DNA of 23,523 nt, taken from NCBI GenBank assembly GCA_023515795.1, contig JALGPX010000008.1, positions 176,034 through 199,556 of the forward strand, read 5' to 3'. The notes under the pieces are model-generated. The model was not told the DNA's origin. It searched no databases and saw only the letters and a program-made list of their open reading frames with translations. This DNA comes from Amoeboaphelidium occidentale. Lineage: Eukaryota; Aphelidiomycota; Aphelidea. A program made the translations under genes and the position numbers. Of this stretch, positions 1,975-20,876 are shown piece by piece (the stretch's first letter is position 1; each line of letters begins with the position of its first letter).

Positions 1975-3285
1975 TTATTCATTTAATAAACTTAAAAGAG
2001 ACTTATTTTGTGTTAGCAACGACTTTGGTGGTATCATGCTGAGCCACAAAGACCACAGCTCATTGCTGGCATTCGCGATCGTTTGGTTATCGTTTAGGCC
2101 AAGTTCTCCACTGAACGATGAGCTTCTTTTCTTAAAAGTTTCTCGTGTAAACTGTGAAGCTTTAAATTGCCGCTCGTAGACCATTGTGAAGTGTTTCTGC
2201 CTGAGTAATATGCGATTCTTCCTCTCAGATGATCCGTTACATAACGCTAGCAATGATAGTAACGCATTCTTGACAGAATTCTTCAAGGTTGTACGTTTTG
2301 CATCAAAACCTTCTGAGTCATGGCCTGGAGGACTAAGAAAGATAGAATCCATGTCCGGTATTAAGCAACATTGTCTCTGATGATCCAAATACACAAAATA
2401 AACAAGACCAGGAAAGGAACTTAAGTAATTTGTCATGGGCAATCGTGTTTCCTTCAATGTGCTCAAGAAACCAGTGAACTGCGAAAGTTTTAACTTCTGA
2501 AACTCGCCGATTAAATCCATTGACAAGGTGCTGTCATCTGCAAGAACTGCTAAAAGCCAAATATCTTCCAGCTCATTCAGAACCTGACGGTAAAGAAAAC
2601 AATTCGAATGGCCATGGTGAAGATCAACGTAGCATTGATGTTGAACATGTTTGATAATCAGTAACTCGTCGTTATCCAAAGTTATGCCATTCGATGTAGA
2701 GTTAACTTTGCACAATAATTTCGACCCAACAAAGAGCATTATATAAGGCTTCATTAATGACCCAGAAAGAGCTGAATTGTACACAGAATCATAGGATTGC
2801 CTGCATAAATCCCTCACGACAAGCATTAGATCATTAGATACTGGTAAAGTCTCTACAGCTCCAAACAGCGCATCCTCAGAAAGATGCTCTTGAAGTATTA
2901 AATCACGCAGAACCTTCATAAAGGCGTTCATTTGATGCCCTTCGTAGCTTTTGGACTTGAGATCAGCATAAGTAAATCGAAGCAATAGCAAGCTTTTCTC
3001 CAGTAGACACAGTATGCGTTCCCTTTCTACCTTTGAAGTATCAATAGAATCCAAATATAAATAAACATATTCCGTAGAACCATTTAGTAGCACTGGCTTT
3101 ATAGCAACTACGCCACGATCACCAGTGAATTCGACAATTTCAGACTCTTCCTTATTAAACACGTGCATAAACAAGTTCACCGTTGCCATTAAAGGAAAGA
3201 ACTTTAAAGTATCACCGTCATTCACAGCTTTCACGGCGTCCAGGAGGATATTCCCTTGCTGATCCAAAACCAAAGCACGAAACAT
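1975..3285 (-). CDS. HPS1: HPS1-like subunit of BLOC-3 (Rab32/38 exchange factor)
   Basis: A protein of about 436 residues resembling HPS1. In animals HPS1 forms BLOC-3 with HPS4, which activates Rab32/38 during biogenesis of lysosome-related organelles. The N-terminus MFRALVLDQQGNILL has the shape of the HPS1/Mon1/Ccz1 longin start, so the ATG at 3283-3285 is preferred over an in-frame ATG at 3330. The C-terminal part has YLSSFPGLVYFVYLD, close to the HPS1 block that ends in FPGLVHFIYVD, followed by a KNSVKNALLSLL helix and a segment with FTMVYERQFKA. The C-terminal LWSLWLSMIPPKSLL fits the family end. The protein is shorter than vertebrate HPS1 (about 700 residues), mainly because the low-complexity middle is missing. 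Assignment rests on motif recall, not on a search. Mon1 or another tri-longin family is the alternative. Confidence 0.72.
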   Translation of the reverse strand: MFRALVLDQQGNILLDAVKAVNDGDTLKFFPLMATVNLFMHVFNKEESEIVEFTGDRGVVAIKPVLLNGSTEYVYLYLDSIDTSKVERERILCLLEKSLLLLRFTYADLKSKSYEGHQMNAFMKVLRDLILQEHLSEDALFGAVETLPVSNDLMLVVRDLCRQSYDSVYNSALSGSLMKPYIMLFVGSKLLCKVNSTSNGITLDNDELLIIKHVQHQCYVDLHHGHSNCFLYRQVLNELEDIWLLAVLADDSTLSMDLIGEFQKLKLSQFTGFLSTLKETRLPMTNYLSSFPGLVYFVYLDHQRQCCLIPDMDSIFLSPPGHDSEGFDAKRTTLKNSVKNALLSLLALCNGSSERKNRILLRQKHFTMVYERQFKASQFTRETFKKRSSSFSGELGLNDNQTIANASNELWSLWLSMIPPKSLLTQNKSLLSLLNE

Positions 3286-3350
3286 CTCAAAGAGAGCAGC
3301 GAGCGATGATCGCATGAAACAACAACGCATTACGGAATTTTCACACGGAA
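3286..3350. promoter_or_regulatory. 65-bp divergent promoter gap between HPS1-like gene and peroxisomal enzyme gene
   Basis: The two start codons (3285 minus, 3351 plus) face away from each other with only 65 bp between them. Both promoters and 5' leaders must therefore sit in this gap or overlap the coding starts. I see no clear TATA box. The function is inferred from gene arrangement only. Confidence 0.5.
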
Positions 3351-6087
3351 ATGACTAAACTGACTTTTGAAGGAAAAGTTGTCGTTGTAACGGGCGCTGG
3401 CGGAGGTGCGGTTCCTCATATTCTTATGGCTTTGACTAATTTCCTGTTTAGGGCTCGGTAAAGTTTACGCTTTGGAGTATGCCAAAAGAGGTGCTGCTGT
3501 TGTTGTTAATGATTTGGGTGTGAGCAGGTCTGGTTCCGGTTCATCTTCCAAAGCCGCAGATGTCGTCGTTGATGAGATAAAGGCTAAGGGAGGCAAGGCT
3601 GTTGCGAACTACGACAGCGTTGAGAATGGGGACCAAATCATAAAGACTGCCATCGATGCTTTCGGAAGAGTCGACATTGTTATTAACAATGCTGGGATCC
3701 TTAGGGACAAAACATTTAGTCGAATGGATGATTCCGACTGGGACTTGGTTCATGCTGTTCATTTGAGAGGTTCTTACAAGGTTACGAAAGCTGCATGGGA
3801 GTATTTTCAGAAGCAGAAGTTTGGCAGAGTTATTAATACTGCATCTGCTGCTGGAATTTACGGAAACTATGGTCAAGCTAATTATAGTGCTGCTAAATTA
3901 GCTCTGCATGGTTTCAGTTCCACGTTGGCTCGCGAAGGAGCAAAGTACAATATCAAAGTTAATACGATTGCTCCTTTGGCTGCTTCTAGAATGACAGAGT
4001 CTGTCCTTCCTCCTGAGATTTTGCAGAATCTTAAGCCTGAATATGTTGCGCCTTTGGTTTTGTACTTGACACACGAATCCACTGAAGAAACAGGCGGCTT
4101 GTTTGAAGTTGGTGCAGGATATGTTGGTAAATTGCGCTGGGAAAGATCTAAAGGAGCTATTTTCAAGACTGATTCCTCTTTCACTCCTGGAAGCGTCCTG
4201 CAGAAATGGAAGCAGATTTGTGACTTTACAAATGCTGATCATCCTGAAACTATTATGGATGTTGACTGGATGGGTATTTTGGACAAGGCAAAGAGTCAAG
4301 CAGCTAATCCTGATGTATCTCCTCCATTAAACTACAAAGGTCGTGTTGTTATTGTCACTGGTGCAGGTGGAGGTCTTGGTCGTGCATACGCTTTGCACTT
4401 TGCCAAGTTTGGAGCGAAAGTTGTTGTTAATGACTTGGGTGTCCAAAAACGTGGTCAAGAATCTGTCAAAGCAGCTGATATAGTTGTTAATGAGATCAAA
4501 AAAGCAGGCGGTGAAGCAGTGGCCAATTATGACTCTGTTGAAGATGGAGATAAGGTTGTCAAAGCAGCAATTGATACGTTCGGAAGAGTTGATGTTGTTA
4601 TTAATAATGCTGGTATTTTGAGAGATAAGTCCTTCAGTAGAGCCACTGATGCAGACTGGGATCTTGTACAGAGAGTGCATTTGAGAGGTACATACAAAGT
4701 CACAAAAGCTGCATGGCCGCACTTTCTAAAGCAGAAGTATGGTAGAATTGTCAACACTGCTTCTGCTGTTGGCTTGTACGGAAACTTTGGACAGGCAAAC
4801 TACAGTGCTGCTAAATCGGGTCTTATTGGATTCAGTAACACTCTTGCAATTGAAGGAGCGAAACACAACATTTTGGTTAATACAATTGCACCAAATGCTG
4901 GTACTGCGATGACTGCAACTGTGATGCCTCCTGAAATGGTTGAAGCATTGAAACCTGATTATGTTGCTCCTTTGGTTGCTTTCTTGGGTCATGAGCAAAA
5001 CAAGACAACTGGCGGAGTTTTCGAAGTGGGAAGTGGATGGGTTGCAAAGAACAGATGGCAAAGGTCTGGCGGTGTTGGCTTTCCACTGGACACGCCATTG
5101 ACTCCTGAAGCTATTGCTGCAAAATTTAGCGAGATTGTGAACTTCAATGATGGCCGTGCAACTAATCCTACTTCTACCCAAGAATCATTCCAAGCAGTAT
5201 TTGAAAACATGCAAAAGGCGTCTAAGCCTGCTCCTTCTAAGACTGTTGTCGGAAAGTTTTCGTATACTTCGAGGGATGTGATTCTTTATAATTTGGGAAT
5301 CGGTGCCAAAAGAGAGGATTTACAGTTTGTCTATGAAAACAATGCAGACTTTAAGCCTATTCCTACTTTTGCTGTTACTCCACCGTTCTCTATGATGCTT
5401 ACATTCCCAATGAATGAAGTAGTTGGTGATTTCAATCCAATGATGTTGTTGCATGGAGAACAATACTTGGAATTCAAGAAACCTTTGCCGAATGAAGGAA
5501 CACTCACCAATGAAATGAAAGTTGTTGATGTTGTAGATAAAGGTAAAGGAGTTGTTTTGGTTCTTGGAGTTACCAGTAAGGATGCTTCTGGAGACGTTGT
5601 TTGCTATAATGAATTCTCCAACTTCATCAGAGGAGTCAAGGGAGTTGGAAACAAAAAAGGCAAAGACAGAGGTGCTGCAACAGCAAATGTTAGCCCCCCA
5701 TCTAGAGCACCAGATGTGGTCGTTGAAGAAAAGACCGACGAAAGTCAGGCAGCGTTGTACAGATTGAGCGGTGATTACAATCCGTTGCACATTGATCCTG
5801 AAATGTCTGCTATGGGTGGTTTCGATGTTCCTATCCTTCATGGTTTGTGCACTTTTGGAATAGCTGGTAAGCATGTGTTCAAGCATTTCTGTGGCAATGA
5901 TTCCAAGAAGTTCAAGTCTATTAAGGCAAGATTTGCGAAACACGTTTTCCCTGGTGAGACTCTCCGCACCGAAATGTGGAAAGAGGGATCAACCGTCATT
6001 TTCCAGGTTCGCGTTCTAGAAAGAGATGTTCTAGCCATCACCAATGCTGCAGTTCAGCTTAACATGACACAACAATCAAAGTTGTAA
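3351..6087 (+). CDS. FOX2: Peroxisomal multifunctional enzyme type 2 (Fox2): two 3R-hydroxyacyl-CoA dehydrogenase domains plus enoyl-CoA hydratase 2
   Basis: Carries out the second and third steps of peroxisomal fatty-acid beta-oxidation: hydration of trans-2-enoyl-CoA to the 3R-hydroxyacyl-CoA, then NAD-dependent oxidation. Exon 1 is 3351-3405 and exon 2 is 3452-6087, with a 46-nt intron (GTGCGG...TTTAG) that splits a Gly codon in the first Rossmann loop; total 896 residues. SDR domain A has TGAGGGLG near residue 14 and catalytic Tyr163/Lys167 in YSAAK. SDR domain B has GAGGGLG at about 322 and Tyr469/Lys473. The hydratase 2 (MaoC-like) domain has YRLSGDYNPLHIDP from residue 788 with catalytic Asp793 and His798, then PILHGLCTFG. 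The protein ends in SKL, a PTS1 peroxisomal signal. Two SDR domains and no SCP2 domain is the fungal layout; animals have one SDR and an SCP2 domain. Confidence 0.97.
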
Positions 6088-6238: not shown

Positions 6239-6325
6239 CGATCACACCAGGGCTCGAACCTGGGACCTCCCGCTGACTTGCTGTACGCTCGTAGGCGGAT
6301 GCTCTTCCAACTGAGCCATGTGACC
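6239..6325 (-). tRNA. tRNA-Arg (anticodon ACG) with a 14-nt intron
   Basis: A full cloverleaf can be drawn on the minus strand. The acceptor GGTCACA (6319-6325) pairs with TGTGATC (6240-6246), with one G-U pair. The D arm is GCTC/GAGC, the anticodon stem TCCGC (6295-6299) with GCGGG (6269-6273), the variable loop AGGTC, and the T arm CCAGG-TTCGAGC-CCTGG (6247-6263). The anticodon loop is too long by 14 nt. An intron at the canonical place after position 37 (6275-6288) leaves a 7-nt loop CTACGAA with anticodon ACG. The intron contains CGT, able to pair with the anticodon as in many eukaryotic pre-tRNAs. CCA is not encoded. The isotype depends on where the intron is placed; that this is a tRNA is not in doubt. 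Confidence 0.88.
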
Positions 6326-13674: not shown

Positions 13675-16511
13675 ATGCCAACAGAGAATGATCATATCAA
13701 ACCAGGCACTTTTATGGCTGAATACTCTAAAGTGATTTACTTCATCATTATGTTTCATAACTCATTCCGTAGAGTGACCGCAGTTCATGCAAAAGATGTA
13801 ACAAGGGAATCAAGAATGAGGCAGTCCGTATTATGCTGTTCCAAGCTTCGAACTTTCACGATGGCCTGCAGAAGACTAATTATCATCCGGAATGTTGTTT
13901 TGAGTATTTTTCTGGTATTCTACTGCACTGCGTTGATGATATCCTGCAATTTGACGCATTACGGAATGATGATCAAATGAAACTGAGAAAGTTATGGGAA
14001 GAGTACGCGGACGAGAATGATGAACAAGATGGAGTTAAGAAGGGCTACATGATAGAAAAGTCGAAAAGTGGCAAGAGCAAATGCAGGTCATGTTTGGAGT
14101 TCATTGAGAAGAATCACATCAGGATGGGCTTCAAAGTTCTTGGTGCTTTTGGTTTGCAGATGGCATGGTATCATGTAGATTGTTTTATGGAACAGTGTAA
14201 TGATATGGCTTCCTCTGTTAAGCAGTTTGGTAATTGGGATACATTGGAACAGGAAGAGATCGATCGCATAGAAAGCTTGTTTGCCAAAGTTGCTGTGCCC
14301 GTTGCTGATAAACAAGGCACTTCTAAGGTTGATAAGGATTCTAATGATAAGGAAAATTTGATCAAAAAGCAGAATGACGAATTATGGAAACTGAAAGATG
14401 ATCTGAACAAGAAATGCTTGCAACACTTGACGCTGAAAGACAGGAAAGCATTACTTATCGAGATTCTTCATAATAATAATGTCCAACTGGAGAGCAAGTC
14501 ACACACAGATCCTCTCGATGTTGTTCTTGATTGCACACTTTACGGGTTGCCAAAAGAATGTCCAGAATGTGGCAAATCAAGATTAATGTGGAGTTCTATC
14601 GATAACTTTTATAAGTGCCCAACATTCTTGGAATGGGGAAAATGTATAGGAAAACTAGATTCTGAACAAGGTGTAGATCCTAATGCAGACTTGCAGTTAA
14701 ATCTTTCTGAAGAATGGTATGCTGTAGATGAAAATGTACAAGGTGTAAAAAAGTATGTAGAAGCGTTGCTTAAAAGCTTAAAGAGCTCAAAGAAGAGAAA
14801 ACGAGCTATGAAGACAAAAGCAGGTATTCCAAAGAGTGAAGTGGTGACTACAGATGACCTTGCAAAGAAGAGAAAGAGAAAGCCAGAGGAAGAGACAAAT
14901 AATGTCAGCAAAGTGTATGTGAAGAATGGATATGAAATTGACGCCGAAACAGAACTGCAGGAAACACATCATATTTACGTCGAAGGAGACACTGCATACA
15001 CTGCAACACTGTCGTCTACAGATGTTCATTCTGGTAGAAATGCTTTCTATAAATTGCAACTACTTGAACCAGATAGTTTCAAAGGATCTTATTACTTGTT
15101 CAGATCATGGGGAAGAGTTGCCAGTAGTGCTGGAGGAACGAAGTTGCAAAGATTTATGAATGTTGAATACGCCAAGGAAGAATTTTGCAATCAATTTCTT
15201 GAAAAGACAGGTAATGAATTTGAAGCAAAGGAGTTTGTCAAGAAACCAAAGAAATTCTATCCACTAGCTGTTGAGGCAAAGGCTTTAGCAAAGACGGTAG
15301 ATTTGAGCAAGGAGAAAGCATCATCTTCACTTGCTCAAGAAGTTCAAGATTTGCTAATGTTGATTTTTGACCAGAATTTAATGAAGAAAGCTTTGAAGGA
15401 AATGGATCTTGACTTGCAGAAAATGCCTTTAGGTAACATATCAGAAACACAAGTGAAGAAAGGATACTCAGTTTTGTCGGAGATAGAACAAATATTATCG
15501 GAAAGCAAGACTATCAAGAAGTCTGAAATCCAGGCTTTGTCAAGCAAGTTCTTTACCATCATTCCACATAACTTTGCTCGTGGAATACAAATGCCTTTGT
15601 TAGACAATCATGATTTTGTCAAGGAAAAGATTAAGATGCTAGACAATATGAGGGAAATATCTGCTGGTTTTGAAATGTTAAAAGTAGATGTTGAAGACAG
15701 TGGTAAGAATCTATTGGATAGTCATTATGAGGCACTTAGCACCGAAATTACAGTGCTTCCACAAAAGGCAACTGAATTTGCTTTGATAGAAAAATATGTC
15801 AATTCAACACATGCTCCAACTCATAAAGACTATAATTTGGATATAACTGCTGTTTTTAAAGTCGCTCGCTCTAATGAAATGGACATTTACAAAGAGCATC
15901 TAAAACAGAATCCGCGCTTGGCTGAAAACAGGTTAATGTTATGGCACGGAAGTAGAGTTACAAATTTTGCTGGTATTTTGCATCAAGGTCTTCGTATTGC
16001 TCCGGCTGAAGCTCCAGTTACTGGATACATGTTTGGAAAAGGTATTTACTTTGCTGATATGGTCACCAAGTCGGCAAATTATTGTTGCGCTACACCTGAG
16101 GACCCTACTGGGTTGCTTATACTATGTGAAACTGCCTTAGGCGATATGCACGAATTGACAGAGTCTGAGTTTATCGAGGAACTTCCAGACGGTAAATTTT
16201 CCACAAAGGGTTTGGGTAAATCAATTCCATCTGGATTTGAGAACTTTCCGACTGAGGTTAAAGGCAAAACTAGCGAAAATACAGATTCAGGCTATTTAAA
16301 GAAAGCGAGATCAATGAGAAGTTCATCAAGGAAAAAGCCTGTTGATAGTACTGTGGTTATGCCAATGGGGCCTCCAACAAAAAATTCAAGTTTAAAGAAA
16401 AGCGAGCTCCTATACAATGAATACGTTGTTTACAACCCAAAGCAAGTTTGTATTAGATATTTGGTTCAAGTTAAGTTTCAGTTCAAAGGTCGAAAGTCTG
16501 GGCGAAGATAA
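13675..16511 (+). CDS. PARP1-type poly(ADP-ribose) polymerase, three zinc modules, WGR and catalytic domain, no BRCT
   Basis: A nuclear DNA-break sensor that polymerises ADP-ribose from NAD. Exon 1 is 13675-13731 and exon 2 is 13773-16511. The 41-nt intron (GTGATT...CCGTAG) lies inside zinc finger 1, and splicing it restores that finger; total 931 residues. Zn1: Cys25, Cys28, His57, Cys60. Zn2: Cys123, Cys126, His153, Cys156. Zn3/PADR1: from about residue 245, with CPECG at 282-286 and later FYKCPTF and GKC. Two basic patches (KKRKRAMK, KKRKRK) look like nuclear signals. WGR is at 465-467, then the helical regulatory domain (about 555-690). The catalytic domain has WHGSR with His744, GKGIYFAD with Tyr778, and NEYVVY with Glu902, completing the H-Y-E triad of active polymerases. 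No BRCT domain lies between Zn3 and WGR. Spacing of all ligands is nearly identical to human PARP1. Confidence 0.96.
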
Positions 16512-16560
16512 CTAAGGATGCCGCAAGCTGGCTTGTCAAGCCGACGCGCAGCAATCAGAA
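16512..16560. other. 49-bp gap between convergent PARP and Fanzor stops, with a near-palindrome
   Basis: The two stop codons (16509-16511 plus, 16561-16563 minus) are 49 bp apart. The gap contains the 13-nt perfect inverted repeat GGCTTG-T-CAAGCC at 16531-16543. It must contain the transcript ends of both genes and, if the mobile element is still bounded, its right end. No target-site duplication could be fixed by eye. Confidence 0.45.
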
Positions 16561-16680
16561 TTAGCTAGTCACAAAATAAAAATTACCTGCTACTTTAACC
16601 TGATAATCCCAAGAGTACCGGTTCTGCGGTCTTGCGACTGGTAGTAGCCTACAGGCCCGAAGGCTCACGAGCTTGTATCC
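16545..16680 (-). ncRNA. Possible guide RNA (fRNA) region at the 3' end of the Fanzor gene
   Basis: In TnpB and Fanzor systems the guide RNA scaffold usually overlaps the 3' end of the nuclease gene and runs to the element's right end. Here the minus strand has a GCC-UUCG-GGC tetraloop hairpin near 16660-16669, immediately followed by the small inverted repeat GCCT-GT-AGGC. ACCGG at 16617-16621 and CTGGT at 16638-16642 could pair by a wobble. The position fits the family; the structure is weak evidence and no transcript data are available. The boundaries given are approximate. Confidence 0.2.
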
Positions 16681-18582
16681 ACTTGATTCCAAATTCTTGA
16701 TCATAATATTCCGAGCAGCATTCATATCTCGATCGAACTTGAAACCGCAGTGTGTACAATTGAACTTTTTGTTTCCTCCAAGTTTGTGGTTGAGTCTCCC
16801 ACAAACTCCACATGCTTTTGAGGTGTATTCCTCGGTGACAACATGGACTGCACAGTTTGGATTTTCCTCTGCTTTTTGAAGAAGTTTTTGTTTGAACCTG
16901 TAATTGAGACCAATTAAGCATATTTCTTGCAGTTTTCGAATTGATCTTGCGATTTGTCTTGATTACCATCTTGCTAACATCAAAGGTAGGAATCAAGATG
17001 ACATTGTAACGGCTTATGAGATCGTGCGCAAGTTTGCCGTGAAAATCAGATACCAAATTCTTGATGCGCTGCCGAGCCCTCTGAATTGCCGCGTTCATTC
17101 TTCTTCGTTTGTACCGATTCTTCCGACCGGTCTTGACCTCAGCTGCTTNACATCAAAGGTAGGAATCAAGATGACATTGTAACGACTTGTAAGATCATGA
17201 GCAAGTTTTCCATGAAAGTTTGAAATCAAATTCTTGATGCGCTGCCGAGCCCTCTGAATTGCCGCGTTCATTCTTCTTCGTTTGTACCGATTCTTCCGAC
17301 CGGTCTTGACCTCAGCTGCTTTAGAAATTAAGCGATCCAAATTAAGACACAGCCTTTCAACTCTTCTGATATCGCCCTTTCCAGCCTCAAAGAAGTTCCC
17401 GAAGCTGTCGTACACGGTTTGAAACGTGCGAAGTCCAGGGTCTAGAGCAGCAGCCTTTGGATGATTTTCTTTAGTTTTTTCTTGATTGGTCTTGTTGTAA
17501 GGAAAGCACACGTAGAAGTGATCTGGCTTCTCCCAAACAACTTCAACTAGCCTCTTGTATTCCTTAGATCCTTGTTTGTTCATTTCATTCTCTATGATTG
17601 ATTTGGCCCGCTGAAATTCAGACTCTGATATGAGCTTAAGAGGCTTTCTGAGTGCATCAAGAGGAAGTTTCAGGCCAAAGTTTTTTCTTTCGGTGCATTT
17701 TCTGGCGCTGGTGGACTCAACACATCGAATCGCGTAAGCGCCCCCTGGGTAGAAGCTGAAGCTTTGCCGTACATCTTTCTTCTTTTTTCTTGACATTTTG
17801 TATTTGAANCTTTCTGAGTGCATCAAGAGGAAGTTTCAGGCCAAAGTTTTTCTTTCGGTGCATTTTCTGGCGCTGGTGGACTCAACACATCGAATCGCGT
17901 AAGCGCCCCCTGGGTAGAAGCTGAAGCTTTGCCGTACATCTTTCTTCTTTTTTCTTGACATTTTGTATTTGAATGCTTTGTTTTGTTCTCTAAATGATTC
18001 CTCGGTGGCTTTGATAGAGGAGACCAGTTTGTGAATAGTTTCTTCTTTAATTTTGCTTGAACAAATGTTTCCATCGTACAGCCATGGACGGCTTGCTCGA
18101 TCTTCCTCTGGAACATTGGAGGTAGTCACAATCTTGTTGCGAAGGGACTGCCAGTTCTTTGGGTGGCCACGGACGAACATTTCATCCAGCCCTTGATTCC
18201 ACACCACGCGAACAATTCCAAAGATCTGTTTGAGTGCAGCTTTTTGTATGGCGTCAGGATGAACACGAATCTTGACGGATCGCATTGTTTCATCTGCTGC
18301 AGGCCCAGATTTCATTCTGCTGCAGATCTGTTTCTCATTAAATGACATGCCAGATTGCAGCGGTTTTGTTTTCTTTCTCTTTTTACTTTCAGGGCTCTGC
18401 CTGTTTAAATGGTATGCTTCCGGTGGATTTTTATGAACGGTAATTTTGTTGTTCAGTTGTGCAAGCGGTGCATAGTAATTGGCAGTGCACCAAGAAATAG
18501 TCCCCTTTGATGCTTTGAACTGAGTTACGGCGCTTGGACTAGATCGTGTTCCAGTATACTGAATTGCTAGTCTTTGAGACAT
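16561..18582 (-). CDS. Fanzor, eukaryotic TnpB-like RNA-guided nuclease (frame broken in this assembly)
   Basis: A nuclease of the transposon-associated TnpB/Fanzor family, which cuts DNA guided by a short RNA made from its own locus. From the ATG at 18580-18582: a basic NLS-like ESKKRKKTKP; the N-terminal fold RSVKIRVHPDAIQKAALKQI followed by VRVVWNQGLD; RuvC-I as AALDPGLRTFQTVYD (Asp codon 17440-17442); RuvC-II region ILIPTFDVSKM; a zinc ribbon EEYTSKACGVCG...FNCTHCG; and RuvC-III FDRDMNAARNIMIKN (Asp codons 16732-16734 and 16726-16728). The gene ends at TAA 16561-16563. The frame is interrupted by a one-base insertion at 16901-16909 and by single-N joins at 17149 and 17809, each flanked by duplicated sequence; one flank at 17809 also has a homopolymer indel. 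With the duplications discounted, length is about 560-620 residues, normal for the family. No transposase was found beside it. Confidence 0.85.
16977..17321. repeat. 172-bp duplicated flanks around a single N (17149)
   Basis: 16977-17148 and 17150-17321 are equal in length and collinear. I count 12 substitutions, all in one stretch of about 55 nt, with the remainder identical. A lone N between them marks an assembly join, so the duplication is probably two alleles or two Fanzor copies laid end to end rather than a real tandem repeat. Confidence 0.85.
17644..17973. repeat. 165/164-bp duplicated flanks around a single N (17809)
   Basis: 17644-17808 and 17810-17973 are the same sequence except for one base in a T-run (six T in the first, five in the second). 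The six-T version keeps the Fanzor frame open (ERKNFGLKLP); the five-T version runs into TGA. This points to a homopolymer error or an inactive second copy at an assembly join. Confidence 0.85.
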
Positions 18583-18750
18583 TACTTTGGATTTATCAGT
18601 CCATCATGGCGCATATTTCAATGGTTGGGCTTGGTTTAATTGAGGAGTTGAAACAGGTGCTTGCGGAGCTGCTGCAGCTCTAGGAGTTCTATTAAGAGTC
18701 TGATATGGTTGGTGCTTTGGTTTCTTCTGCAATCTTGTTACGACAGGCAT
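18583..18750 (-). other. Upstream in-frame extension of the Fanzor reading frame through one TGA
   Basis: The Fanzor frame stays open upstream of its first Met except for a single TGA at 18604-18606. It reaches an ATG at 18748-18750. The upstream segment encodes 48 residues rich in Pro, Ala and Gln (from MPVVTRLQKKPKHQPY). After the TGA the frame reads WTDKSKVMSQRL directly into the protein. It may be the true N-terminus with a nonsense change or base error, a short upstream ORF, or chance. Confidence 0.4.
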
Positions 18751-19727
18751 TGCTTAATGAAGAAAATAGAAAGTCTACTGTTGAAACGATTTGATCATAG
18801 GGGCATTGATCTTGCCGAATAGGGTGGTAATTGATGTTACAACCCGCATGATCAAAAATCACTTTATAAGGAAATAAAAGTGTCATTAAATTGACAAATC
18901 AATGCAATTCTTCTGTCAGAGGATGTACAATTACTTTGGCGGATGTTGGAATCATTTGAGTGGCAAAGTGCAAGAACTGCAGTCCTGACGACGTTCCCGT
19001 CATGTGAGATACATAAAAGTTGCTCACTTGCGATGTTAAATAAGCCATGACTTAAATATTGACTTGAAACGAGAAGAGTTCTAAATGTTTCGATAGTCTT
19101 TGATTTCTGTGATTGAAACAGCGCAATCGCGAAAAGAACCTGAGGCCATATGATGTTTCCGACAAACGTATTCCAAATCTGTTGGAAGATTCTGAAAGGG
19201 CACTATGTGAAGTTTTATTTGGGCTGAATTCAAGCTCCCAGCTTGAGTCTTGAGAATGCCATCTCAACTAGTTCCTTTAATTTTGAACTTTCACACGCTT
19301 AGAGAGAGTTTAGCACCGAGATAGCAAATAAATGTTTCCTCTGTCACAAATAAACGACGATATTGATAGATACTACACGAAAACAGTGTTCAAGATGCCA
19401 TTATTGGAGTCTTTGCATGAGATCAAACATCAGTCTGAAACAACAACACCAACACGCTACCATGTTTCACGCTTCAAGCGTCATTTGACAGAATAGTAAG
19501 CAAAGACTCAGAACTGAGAGTTTCATGGGTACCGACTTAGAGCTGGGTAAGATATCTCGTTGAAACTACTTTTGGCGCATAAACGATGCGCTAATGCTGT
19601 TAAGCTGAAACTCTGCAATTAAGTTTTTTAAGAGATTCTATTGTGATATTCGTGCTTGTTATGTCATTGTTCGCCTTAATTGTCGTTCATTCAGAACCTT
19701 TTTATCATGGACTGAAACTCAAAAGAA
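18751..19727. other. About 1 kb with no confident gene
   Basis: No frame codes for a recognisable protein. Two short ORFs with a start and stop can be noted: 18899-19048 on the minus strand (49 residues, from MAYLTSQVSNFYVS) and 19332-19496 on the plus strand (54 residues, from MFPLSQINDDIDRYY). Neither resembles a known family and both are short enough to be chance. No terminal inverted repeats, target-site duplication, tRNA or tandem array was found. It may be part of the element that carries the Fanzor, or 5' sequence of the gene that follows. Confidence 0.4.
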
Positions 19728-19851
19728 ATGCCTAATCAGCTTGTTTCAACGTCTTTCAGCGCATTGAATGCATCACCAGAGGAGCAACATACTGCTACGC
19801 GATGTGATCTTTGTGCGCCATAAGTAAGAACTTGCTCAATTTAGAATAATT

Positions 19852-20442
19852 CTCAATGGGAACTCTTTCGCATTCATCTAATCTTGAGTCTTTCGACACG
19901 ATCTGCAGTGGTAGTATCCAAATCTTTCCTAGTCAAAGTTCTAAATACAATAAAGTCGTGCAATATTCTCCAAACTATCGCGACCATGTAGCAATTTCAG
20001 CAGCAGCAACAGAACTGAAAGTATGGTCTCTGTGAGATATTTTCATCTAAATCGCCAGCAGGTTTTCGTGAATATCTTCTTTCCATGTTGCTCATTGTTC
20101 TTAACAGTAAATTTACTTTTAGTATCGATTAAGCTTTGCAAACTGANCTCAATGGGAACTCTTTCGCATTCATCTAATCTTGAGTCTTTCGACACGATCT
20201 GCAGTGGTAGTATCCAAATCTTTCCTAGTCAAAGTTCTGAACATAATTATGGAGTGCAACATTCTCCAAAGTATCGCGACCATGTAGCAATTTCAGCAGA
20301 AGCAACAGAACTGAAAGTATGGTCTCTGTGAGATATTTTCATCTAAATCGCCAGCAAGTTTTCTTGAATATCTTCTTTCCATGTTGCTCATTGTTCTTAA
20401 CAGTAAATTTACTTTTAGTATCGATTAAGCTTTGCAAACTGA
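19852..20442. repeat. 295-bp duplicated flanks around a single N (20147)
   Basis: 19852-20146 and 20148-20442 align without gaps over 295 bp. I count 12 substitutions, nine of them within about 45 nt (19942-19984 against 20238-20280). The lone N between them indicates an assembly join of two divergent versions, as at 17149 and 17809, although a genuine tandem duplication cannot be excluded. Confidence 0.85.
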
Positions 20443-20708
20443 TAGTAAGATGCGCAAATAAGTGCGTGACAAAAGTAAAGGAGTGCGCACAAAGTAAAAC
20501 TATACATAGTATGAAAGCAAAAGAGTATGAGAGTGTAACAGTAACAGTTCTAAAGACAGTCACTGCAAAAAAACGGTGCAAGCATGGCAGATGTTTTAAG
20601 GAGAAAGAGCTGCAGCCCAAAAGAGTAATGATAATCTGTAGAACATCTCAGCAGAAGGATAGATTACGGAACAGAGCGATTTTTAGCAATATCAAGATCC
20701 AGGATTAA
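20152..20708 (+). CDS. Candidate small single-pass membrane protein gene, structure uncertain
   Basis: I do not recognise this gene. One model joins exon 20152-20316 (55 codons, from MGTLSHSSNLESFD) to exon 20355-20708 through a 38-nt intron (GTATGG...CGCCAG, with CTAAA as a possible branch site). This gives 172 residues with one membrane helix (VFLNIFFPCCSLFLTVNLLL) and a basic, Lys/Arg- and Cys-containing tail. A second model uses another frame in the first exon (ending in KVLNIIMECNILQSIAT), then a 34-nt intron and the segment MVSVRYFHLNRQQVF, which enters the same final exon. The substitutions between the two assembled copies are mostly non-synonymous in the first model and about half synonymous in the second, which slightly favours the second. 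The 5' end may lie upstream, near 19765 in the other copy. Confidence 0.35.
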
Positions 20709-20876
20709 CTGTTGGAAAAAGCTTGTCTTGTTTTGTCTTGATTCGTCTTGCGGCAACCATAAAGATAACGAATCTGATTGGGCGAATAGATGTTTCAGAA
20801 TTTTGCAGGGCCCAATACGGTTGGCGGACCTTGTAACAGCGTGCAACTCTTCACGATCCTGCCTATTTTTCTTGAA
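20709..20876. promoter_or_regulatory. Presumed promoter of the His-rich membrane protein gene
   Basis: The gap between the last stop and the preferred start of the next gene. It holds three GTCTTG hexamers spaced exactly 10 bp apart (20725, 20735, 20745), that is, on one face of the helix, about 130 bp before the start codon. No TATA box is clear. Function is inferred from position. Confidence 0.3.

Follow-up and report, generated by a model that had tools for sequence, protein, structure and literature searches.

The closest described systems are Fanzor2 nucleases carried by cut-and-paste transposons of Chloropicon primus and of molluscs (Fanzor2*), whose transposon families go unnamed in the passages that describe them (PMC10711439). 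The same account predicts that their terminal inverted repeat (TIR) and target site duplication (TSD) lie within the guide-RNA scaffold, gives the pairing of a DPG motif with a shifted RuvC-II glutamate (Ealt) as the fingerprint of Fanzors, and reports that a pseudoknot is needed for an IS607 TnpB (PMC10711439). Aphelids are described in abstracts as a sister lineage of Fungi, and are listed by NCBI as the phylum Aphelidiomycota within Fungi.

Here we describe a Fanzor2 locus of the aphelid Amoeboaphelidium occidentale, in a stretch of 23,523 nucleotides (the window; contig C52, 176034-199556) from an 11.3-Mb genome in 204 contigs. It resembles the Fanzor2 elements above in combining DPG and Ealt with TIRs and TSDs and in not being of the IS607 type (PMC10711439); it differs from them in its aphelid host, its 8-bp TSD, its hAT-like ends, its own long branch in the tree and the broken state of its long copies. 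Our literature search for aphelid Fanzors and for Fanzor2 in hAT elements, outside whose scope most subscription journals lay, found no report showing this system. We consider it likely that the locus is a decayed, non-autonomous hAT-like cut-and-paste transposon carrying a Fanzor2, inserted one base past the stop codon of a PARP gene, and that it descends from a working guide-RNA system of the kind modelled below.

Results

The window copy is a Fanzor2 gene in pieces

The Fanzor reading frame ends at 16561, 49 bases past the PARP stop codon (16509-16511) and tail to tail with that gene, as the first-pass annotation had placed it (Table 1). The single locus which that annotation drew at 16561..18582 is, however, not one open frame: it is divided by N joins and a frameshift, and belongs to an element extending over 16513-20761. 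We rejected real tandem duplications inside the gene, reading the repeats as single-N joins of overlapping contig ends; those at 17149 and 17809 are joins rather than biology because the copy on contig C12 runs through without them. The database gene model P0030 crosses two single-N joins and is an artefact there, and a 380-aa database protein of the species, MP638_003856, is made of the window's own translation.

Table 1. Positions of the PARP gene, the transposon and its parts within the window
Feature	Position	Strand	Remarks
PARP gene	13833..16511	+	domains present (PF00644, E=5.5e-67); stop codon TAA at 16509-16511 inside TSD
Putative guide, if TSD is counted as scaffold	16484..16504	-	antisense to last PARP codons; placed by position, by analogy with an account in PMC10711439
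TSD AAGATAAC, 8 bp, right-end side	16505..16512		contains PARP TAA
Whole element, hAT-like	16513..20761	-	TIRs and TSD; 4249 bp assembled, ~3.6 kb minus the three join repeats
Right-end TIR TAAGGATGCCGCAAG	16513..16527	+	13/15 bases common to left end
Putative reRNA scaffold	16513..16712	-	ORF end plus noncoding tail, terminal stem uses TIR; from conservation and structure counts
Fanzor2 C-terminal piece	16561..17148	-	frameshift near codon 503, Ealt, zinc ribbon, RuvC-III
Single-N join	17149		repeat 16977-17148 / 17150-17321 (172 bp, 93%)
Fanzor2 middle piece	17150..17808	-	RuvC-I (DPG)
Single-N join	17809		repeat 17644-17808 / 17810-17973 (165 bp, 99%)
Fanzor2 N-terminal piece	17810..18582	-	HTH, basic stretch; frame extension upstream to 18753 broken by TGA, codon 49
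Element 5' part	18583..20746	-	query 18560-20790: 64 genome matches, itself included
Single-N join	20147		repeat 19852-20146 / 20148-20442
Left-end TIR TATGGTTGCCGCAAG	20747..20761	-
TSD AAGATAAC, 8 bp, left-end side	20762..20769		sole other occurrence in window

Owing to the one-base shift near codon 503, RuvC-I is out of frame with the shifted glutamate, the zinc ribbon and RuvC-III; a further frameshift, near 17852, falls in a contig end, and the piece that overlaps it does not have this shift. Codon 49 is TGA both here and in the copy on contig C37, so that a methionine further along may be the one at which translation begins, as in P0030. The C-terminal piece lacks the stop that other copies have. 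An Rfam scan of the window put only tRNA above the cut-off, a snoRNA match over 16480-17000 being sub-threshold; the tRNA-like gene lies at 6239-6325 on the minus strand (51.4 bits), its anticodon not named by ARAGORN.

Motifs, profiles and a tree place the protein with Fanzor2

The Fanzor call of the first-pass annotation, and the motifs on which it was built, held up. RuvC-I reads ALDPGLRTF (minus strand, 17422-17448; ALDPGVRTF in the C12 copy); a C4 zinc ribbon and the RuvC-III motif DRDMNAARN are present, with a PF07282 match at 16705-16902 (66.6 bits, above the cut-off); and the basic stretches earlier likened to a nuclear localization signal are found in the protein. The shifted RuvC-II glutamate stands six residues before the zinc ribbon, in TEEYTSKAC in the window and TEEYASKAC in C12, and the N-terminal piece holds an OrfB/IS605 helix-turn-helix (PF12323, 36.9 bits). 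A profile search with the C12 copy and two distant relatives returned 228 proteins at E<=1e-8 among 7993 candidates scored; we examined 120 of these. DPG was present in 96 of the 100 whose zinc ribbon was readable by pattern, and every one of the 100 had the shifted glutamate. Natural relatives from metagenomes, P0033 and P0035 among them, appear to be full-length.

A tree of 114 RuvC cores, whose bootstrap had not settled and in which the window family occupies a long lone branch, grouped that family with 106 relatives, Naegleria and Moorena among them, at a support of 87/99; three relatives fell outside the group, and the genome's four Fanzor1-like proteins stood apart. Naegleria lovaniensis P0104 and Moorena P0139 and P0142, all within this large cluster, carry the motifs ALDPGVRTF and E.YTSKTC, with identities to the query of 47% over 33% (P0104), 45% over 39% (P0142) and 31% over 72% (P0139). 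The TDG motif of the Fanzor1 wedge domain is absent from P0034 and from P0030 and present in the four Fanzor1-like loci (L069-L072), a weak test of Fanzor1 because TDG also occurs in 9 of the 120 relatives. Among solved structures, the best match of the window's C-terminal part was the distant TnpB-like protein L79 (PDB 9b0l, E=4.7e-18), which we take to be a mimivirus Fanzor2; no solved-structure chain matched the truncated model P0030 at E 0.1. By motifs, profile matches and tree, the window protein is of Fanzor2 type, and a putative RNA-guided nuclease.

The element has inverted repeats and an 8-bp target site duplication

An inverted repeat, GGTTGCCGCAAG, is located at 20758 on the left side. 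Across the genome, GGTTGCCGCAAGAC with at most one mismatch gave 30 matches (one for the reversed control), comprising 12 right ends and 18 left-like places, 13 of the latter exact; a 33-base right-end core occurred 15 times, 12 of them without mismatch, and its reversed control never. The copies are dispersed, and their right-end flanks differ, except for two copies on C71 that have a nearly common flank and for C12a and C54, whose flank is common.

For 15 of the 18 left-like places (C88 and C100 left out, C57 handled separately) we compared the flanks with those of 14 of the 15 right ends (C54 left out, as it repeats the C12a flank). Among these 15 x 14 flanks, three pairs matched in 8/8 positions at one offset, namely the window with itself, C168 with C37 and C71 with C71b, against a chance expectation of 0.0045 at one offset, three offsets having been scanned; two further pairs matched in 7/8, where 0.106 pairs of 7/8 or better would be expected. 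Both C168 and C37 break off within the element, which is what a single insertion split during assembly would give. Counting against are the C71 pair, whose orientation requires an assembly inversion, and the bases just outside GGTTGCC, which vary between left ends. C57 was rejected as a further case, the sequence after its left-end-like motif having no match to the window.

TIRs of hAT transposons begin YARNG, and the hAT target consensus has T expected at position 2 and A preferred at position 7. Set against that start, the right end reads TAAGG, and left ends read TATGG, ACAGG, GCAGG, AGAGG and others. In 23 target sites, from 13 right ends (without C71c, a near repeat) and 10 left ends (the five paired at 7/8 or better dropped), G stands at position 1 in 16 and A at position 7 in 16, with T at position 2 in only 10. 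We read the element as hAT-like: it resembles hAT transposons in its 8-bp TSD, the start of its right TIR and the A at position 7, and differs from them in that no transposase was found inside it; the earlier suggestion of a non-autonomous or captured element agrees with this picture. To the first-pass proposal of a comparison with an empty site downstream of PARP, the TSD gives an indirect answer. Since the TSD contains the PARP stop codon, the insertion left the PARP protein unchanged, and an AATAAA on the PARP strand at 16575-16580, inside the right end, could act as the poly(A) signal of PARP.

Candidate movers lie on other contigs

We searched four transposase and recombinase families, none of which matched on this contig, in keeping with the first-pass remark that no transposase was found within about 2.3 kb. 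Neither the Y1 HUH transposase (positive in five of 14 control genomes) nor the Helitron profile (which gave none in the control genomes either) had a match in the genome. Serine recombinases gave a single match genome-wide, at C172:89432-89881 (L044), on a contig where we found no copy of the window's Fanzor2 subfamily. hAT dimerisation domains occur at six places. A hAT gene on C120 was tried as the autonomous partner and is not supported, no TIR appearing in the two stretches read there. On the same contig, at 500-660 and 3200-3560 (L078 and L079), a copy of the 5' repeat seen in the window seems to split a hAT transposase reading, whose RWNSTYDM we take to be a hAT transposase motif.

Long copies are broken and bear the mark of past selection

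The C12 copy forms one frame of 601 codons, interrupted only by a stop at codon 403, and all four copies that cover at least half of the gene (C12, C37, C71a and C71b) have at least one stop or frameshift. The first-pass annotation had raised the prospect of intact copies elsewhere: the window copy and these four are broken, and P0031, a 241-aa piece encoded on another contig of the species, has an open frame but is incomplete. Among ten pieces compared, the window's middle piece alone is free of stops and frameshifts. An intact copy may exist outside this assembly. Beside tandem Fanzor2 copies on C71, two near-identical ORFs that we read as kinase-like (L032, 2712-3293 and 7409-7981) look like a segmental duplication.

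Against C12, dN/dS was 0.05-0.21 in nine of the ten pieces, with dS ranging from 0.53 to 1.19; C54, the tenth, is 99% identical and has no silent change. The nuclease was therefore selected for while the element spread; sequence comparison indicates purifying selection on the lineages between copies, and we infer that the breaks came later than this selection.

The right end is conserved beyond its reading frame

A conservation profile of C12 against eight other sequences gave third-position identities of 0.52-0.78 in 12 of 14 bins across codons 241-520 (0.85 and 0.90 in the other two) and of 0.77-0.88 over the last 80 codons. In the noncoding tail total identity is 0.93-0.99, compared with about 0.4-0.6 expected from drift at the observed dS, and the 3' end of the right end is near-invariant among copies. 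The rise is uneven: among five close copies, third-position identity climbs to 0.96 for codons 571-590, with dips on either side (0.52 at 561-570, 0.70 at 591-600).

We propose a structure of three small hairpins, a terminal stem that includes the TIR and a 5-bp pseudoknot. Pairing across 11 copies holds in 94.4% of cells, against 23.7-47.7% for slid and 92.9% for shuffled alignments (1/500 reached it), and the covariation score is 0.071 against 0.044 when shuffled (1/500), counts that favour the drawn fold because it was drawn by eye on the same alignment. Two of 33 pairs change on both sides, a number reached by 196 of 500 shuffles. The RNAalifold fold differs outside the terminal stem, its covariation term of +0.06 bringing no covariation gain; for the C71a copy the folding energy does not stand out (z -1.42); the pseudoknot match could arise by chance alone; and the window copy breaks one terminal-stem pair and one pseudoknot pair. 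We regard the right end as constrained and the exact fold as tentative. The conserved right end, with its overlapping reading frame, is probably a guide-RNA scaffold, a role predicted from its pattern of conservation.

Other Fanzors and a shared 5' repeat

The PF07282 zinc ribbon occurs at 90 places in the genome, ten of them in open frames of at least 450 aa; Spizellomyces punctatus, for comparison, is reported to have a multi-copy Fanzor complement of 42 loci (PMC10432273). We read four of these open-frame loci, the Fanzor1-like L069-L072, and found TDG in all four. They are like the window protein in their genome, shifted glutamate and zinc ribbon, and unlike it in TDG, in RuvC-I (DPN, DMG, DPG and DPN) and in tree branches at least 3 away.

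Inside the element, a repeat on the minus strand (19615-19036) has a sharp boundary at 19615, reading CAGAGTTTCAGC here and CAAAGTTTCAGC in L076 and L077. This segment recurs 3-4.4 kb upstream of Fanzor zinc-ribbon matches on C196, C26, C142 and C202. A boundary at 2624 of L034, tried as a left end and as capture of a UbiB-like exon (the name is our own reading), was dropped once the 5' segment turned out to recur throughout the genome.

Discussion

The low dN/dS and the conserved right end together argue that a working system once existed. In that state, transcription of the transposon's right end would have yielded a guide RNA some 190 nt long, plus flank. Its scaffold would have comprised the last part of the reading frame together with the noncoding tail and the TIR, and neighbouring host DNA would have supplied the guide that came after it. 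The empty site matching the guide would be cut by the nuclease and repaired from the element-bearing copy, and a transposase supplied from elsewhere, presumably of hAT type, would move the element; cutting of empty sites with repair from the element copy would keep or spread the element whenever it was moved.

Fanzor2s usually sit in IS607 elements, according to the accounts consulted (PMC10711439, PMC3627910), and the G that follows 10 of 13 right ends is reminiscent of the fixed right-flanking base of IS607; yet a classical element of that type, moved by a serine recombinase (TnpA) and having neither TIR nor TSD, is already disfavoured and strikes us as very improbable here, because TIRs stand at both ends, 8-bp TSDs are found in three flank pairs and the sole serine recombinase match is on a contig where no subfamily copy was found. 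The IS200/IS605 hallmarks, a Y1 HUH transposase and no TSD, do not describe the element either. Copies with more right ends than 5' parts, and a strong hairpin at the element's 3' end, recall Chlamydomonas CRe-1, whose copies are described as 3'-rich and 5'-truncated, with a 3'-terminal hairpin (PMC3627910). A Helitron or one-ended element of that kind would nevertheless have to accommodate the TIRs and 8-bp TSDs, and the apparent 5' truncation is partly a matter of contig ends; we give it even less credence than IS607.

Least probable of the alternatives is a host-adopted Fanzor gene kept beside PARP: it would fit the low dN/dS among copies and the tail-to-tail arrangement with a conserved gene, but the window copy is frameshifted and the selection signal comes from comparing dispersed copies of the element. 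A question of assembly deserves more weight. The overlap at 17149 is only 93% identical, so the 3' third (16513-17148) may derive from another copy than the middle piece, and the scaffold could be a composite of two copies joined at that point; we hold such a partial chimera to be unlikely, though a serious contender, since a heterozygous locus would look alike and the 8-bp TSD common to both ends shows that the outer pieces belong together.

Returning to the hAT-like transposon, we venture as a speculation, more doubtful than not, that its TIR had a triple role, as transposase site, arm of the terminal stem and strand of the pseudoknot, and that one hAT-like chassis may carry several Fanzor kinds, as the 5' segment recurs near zinc-ribbon matches of which the ribbons alone were read. 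If the triple role is true, a Fanzor could be captured only by transposons whose ends fit its guide RNA.

An alga and molluscs already provide examples of Fanzor2 in cut-and-paste transposons; what this locus adds is a fossil Fanzor2 in a hAT-like element with exact ends. Placing a Fanzor2 in a hAT-like transposon of an aphelid, with exact ends and TSDs, gives a guide-RNA boundary that can be tested, and because the genome also has Fanzor1-like genes, the passage of RNA-guided nucleases between unrelated transposons becomes testable in one small genome.
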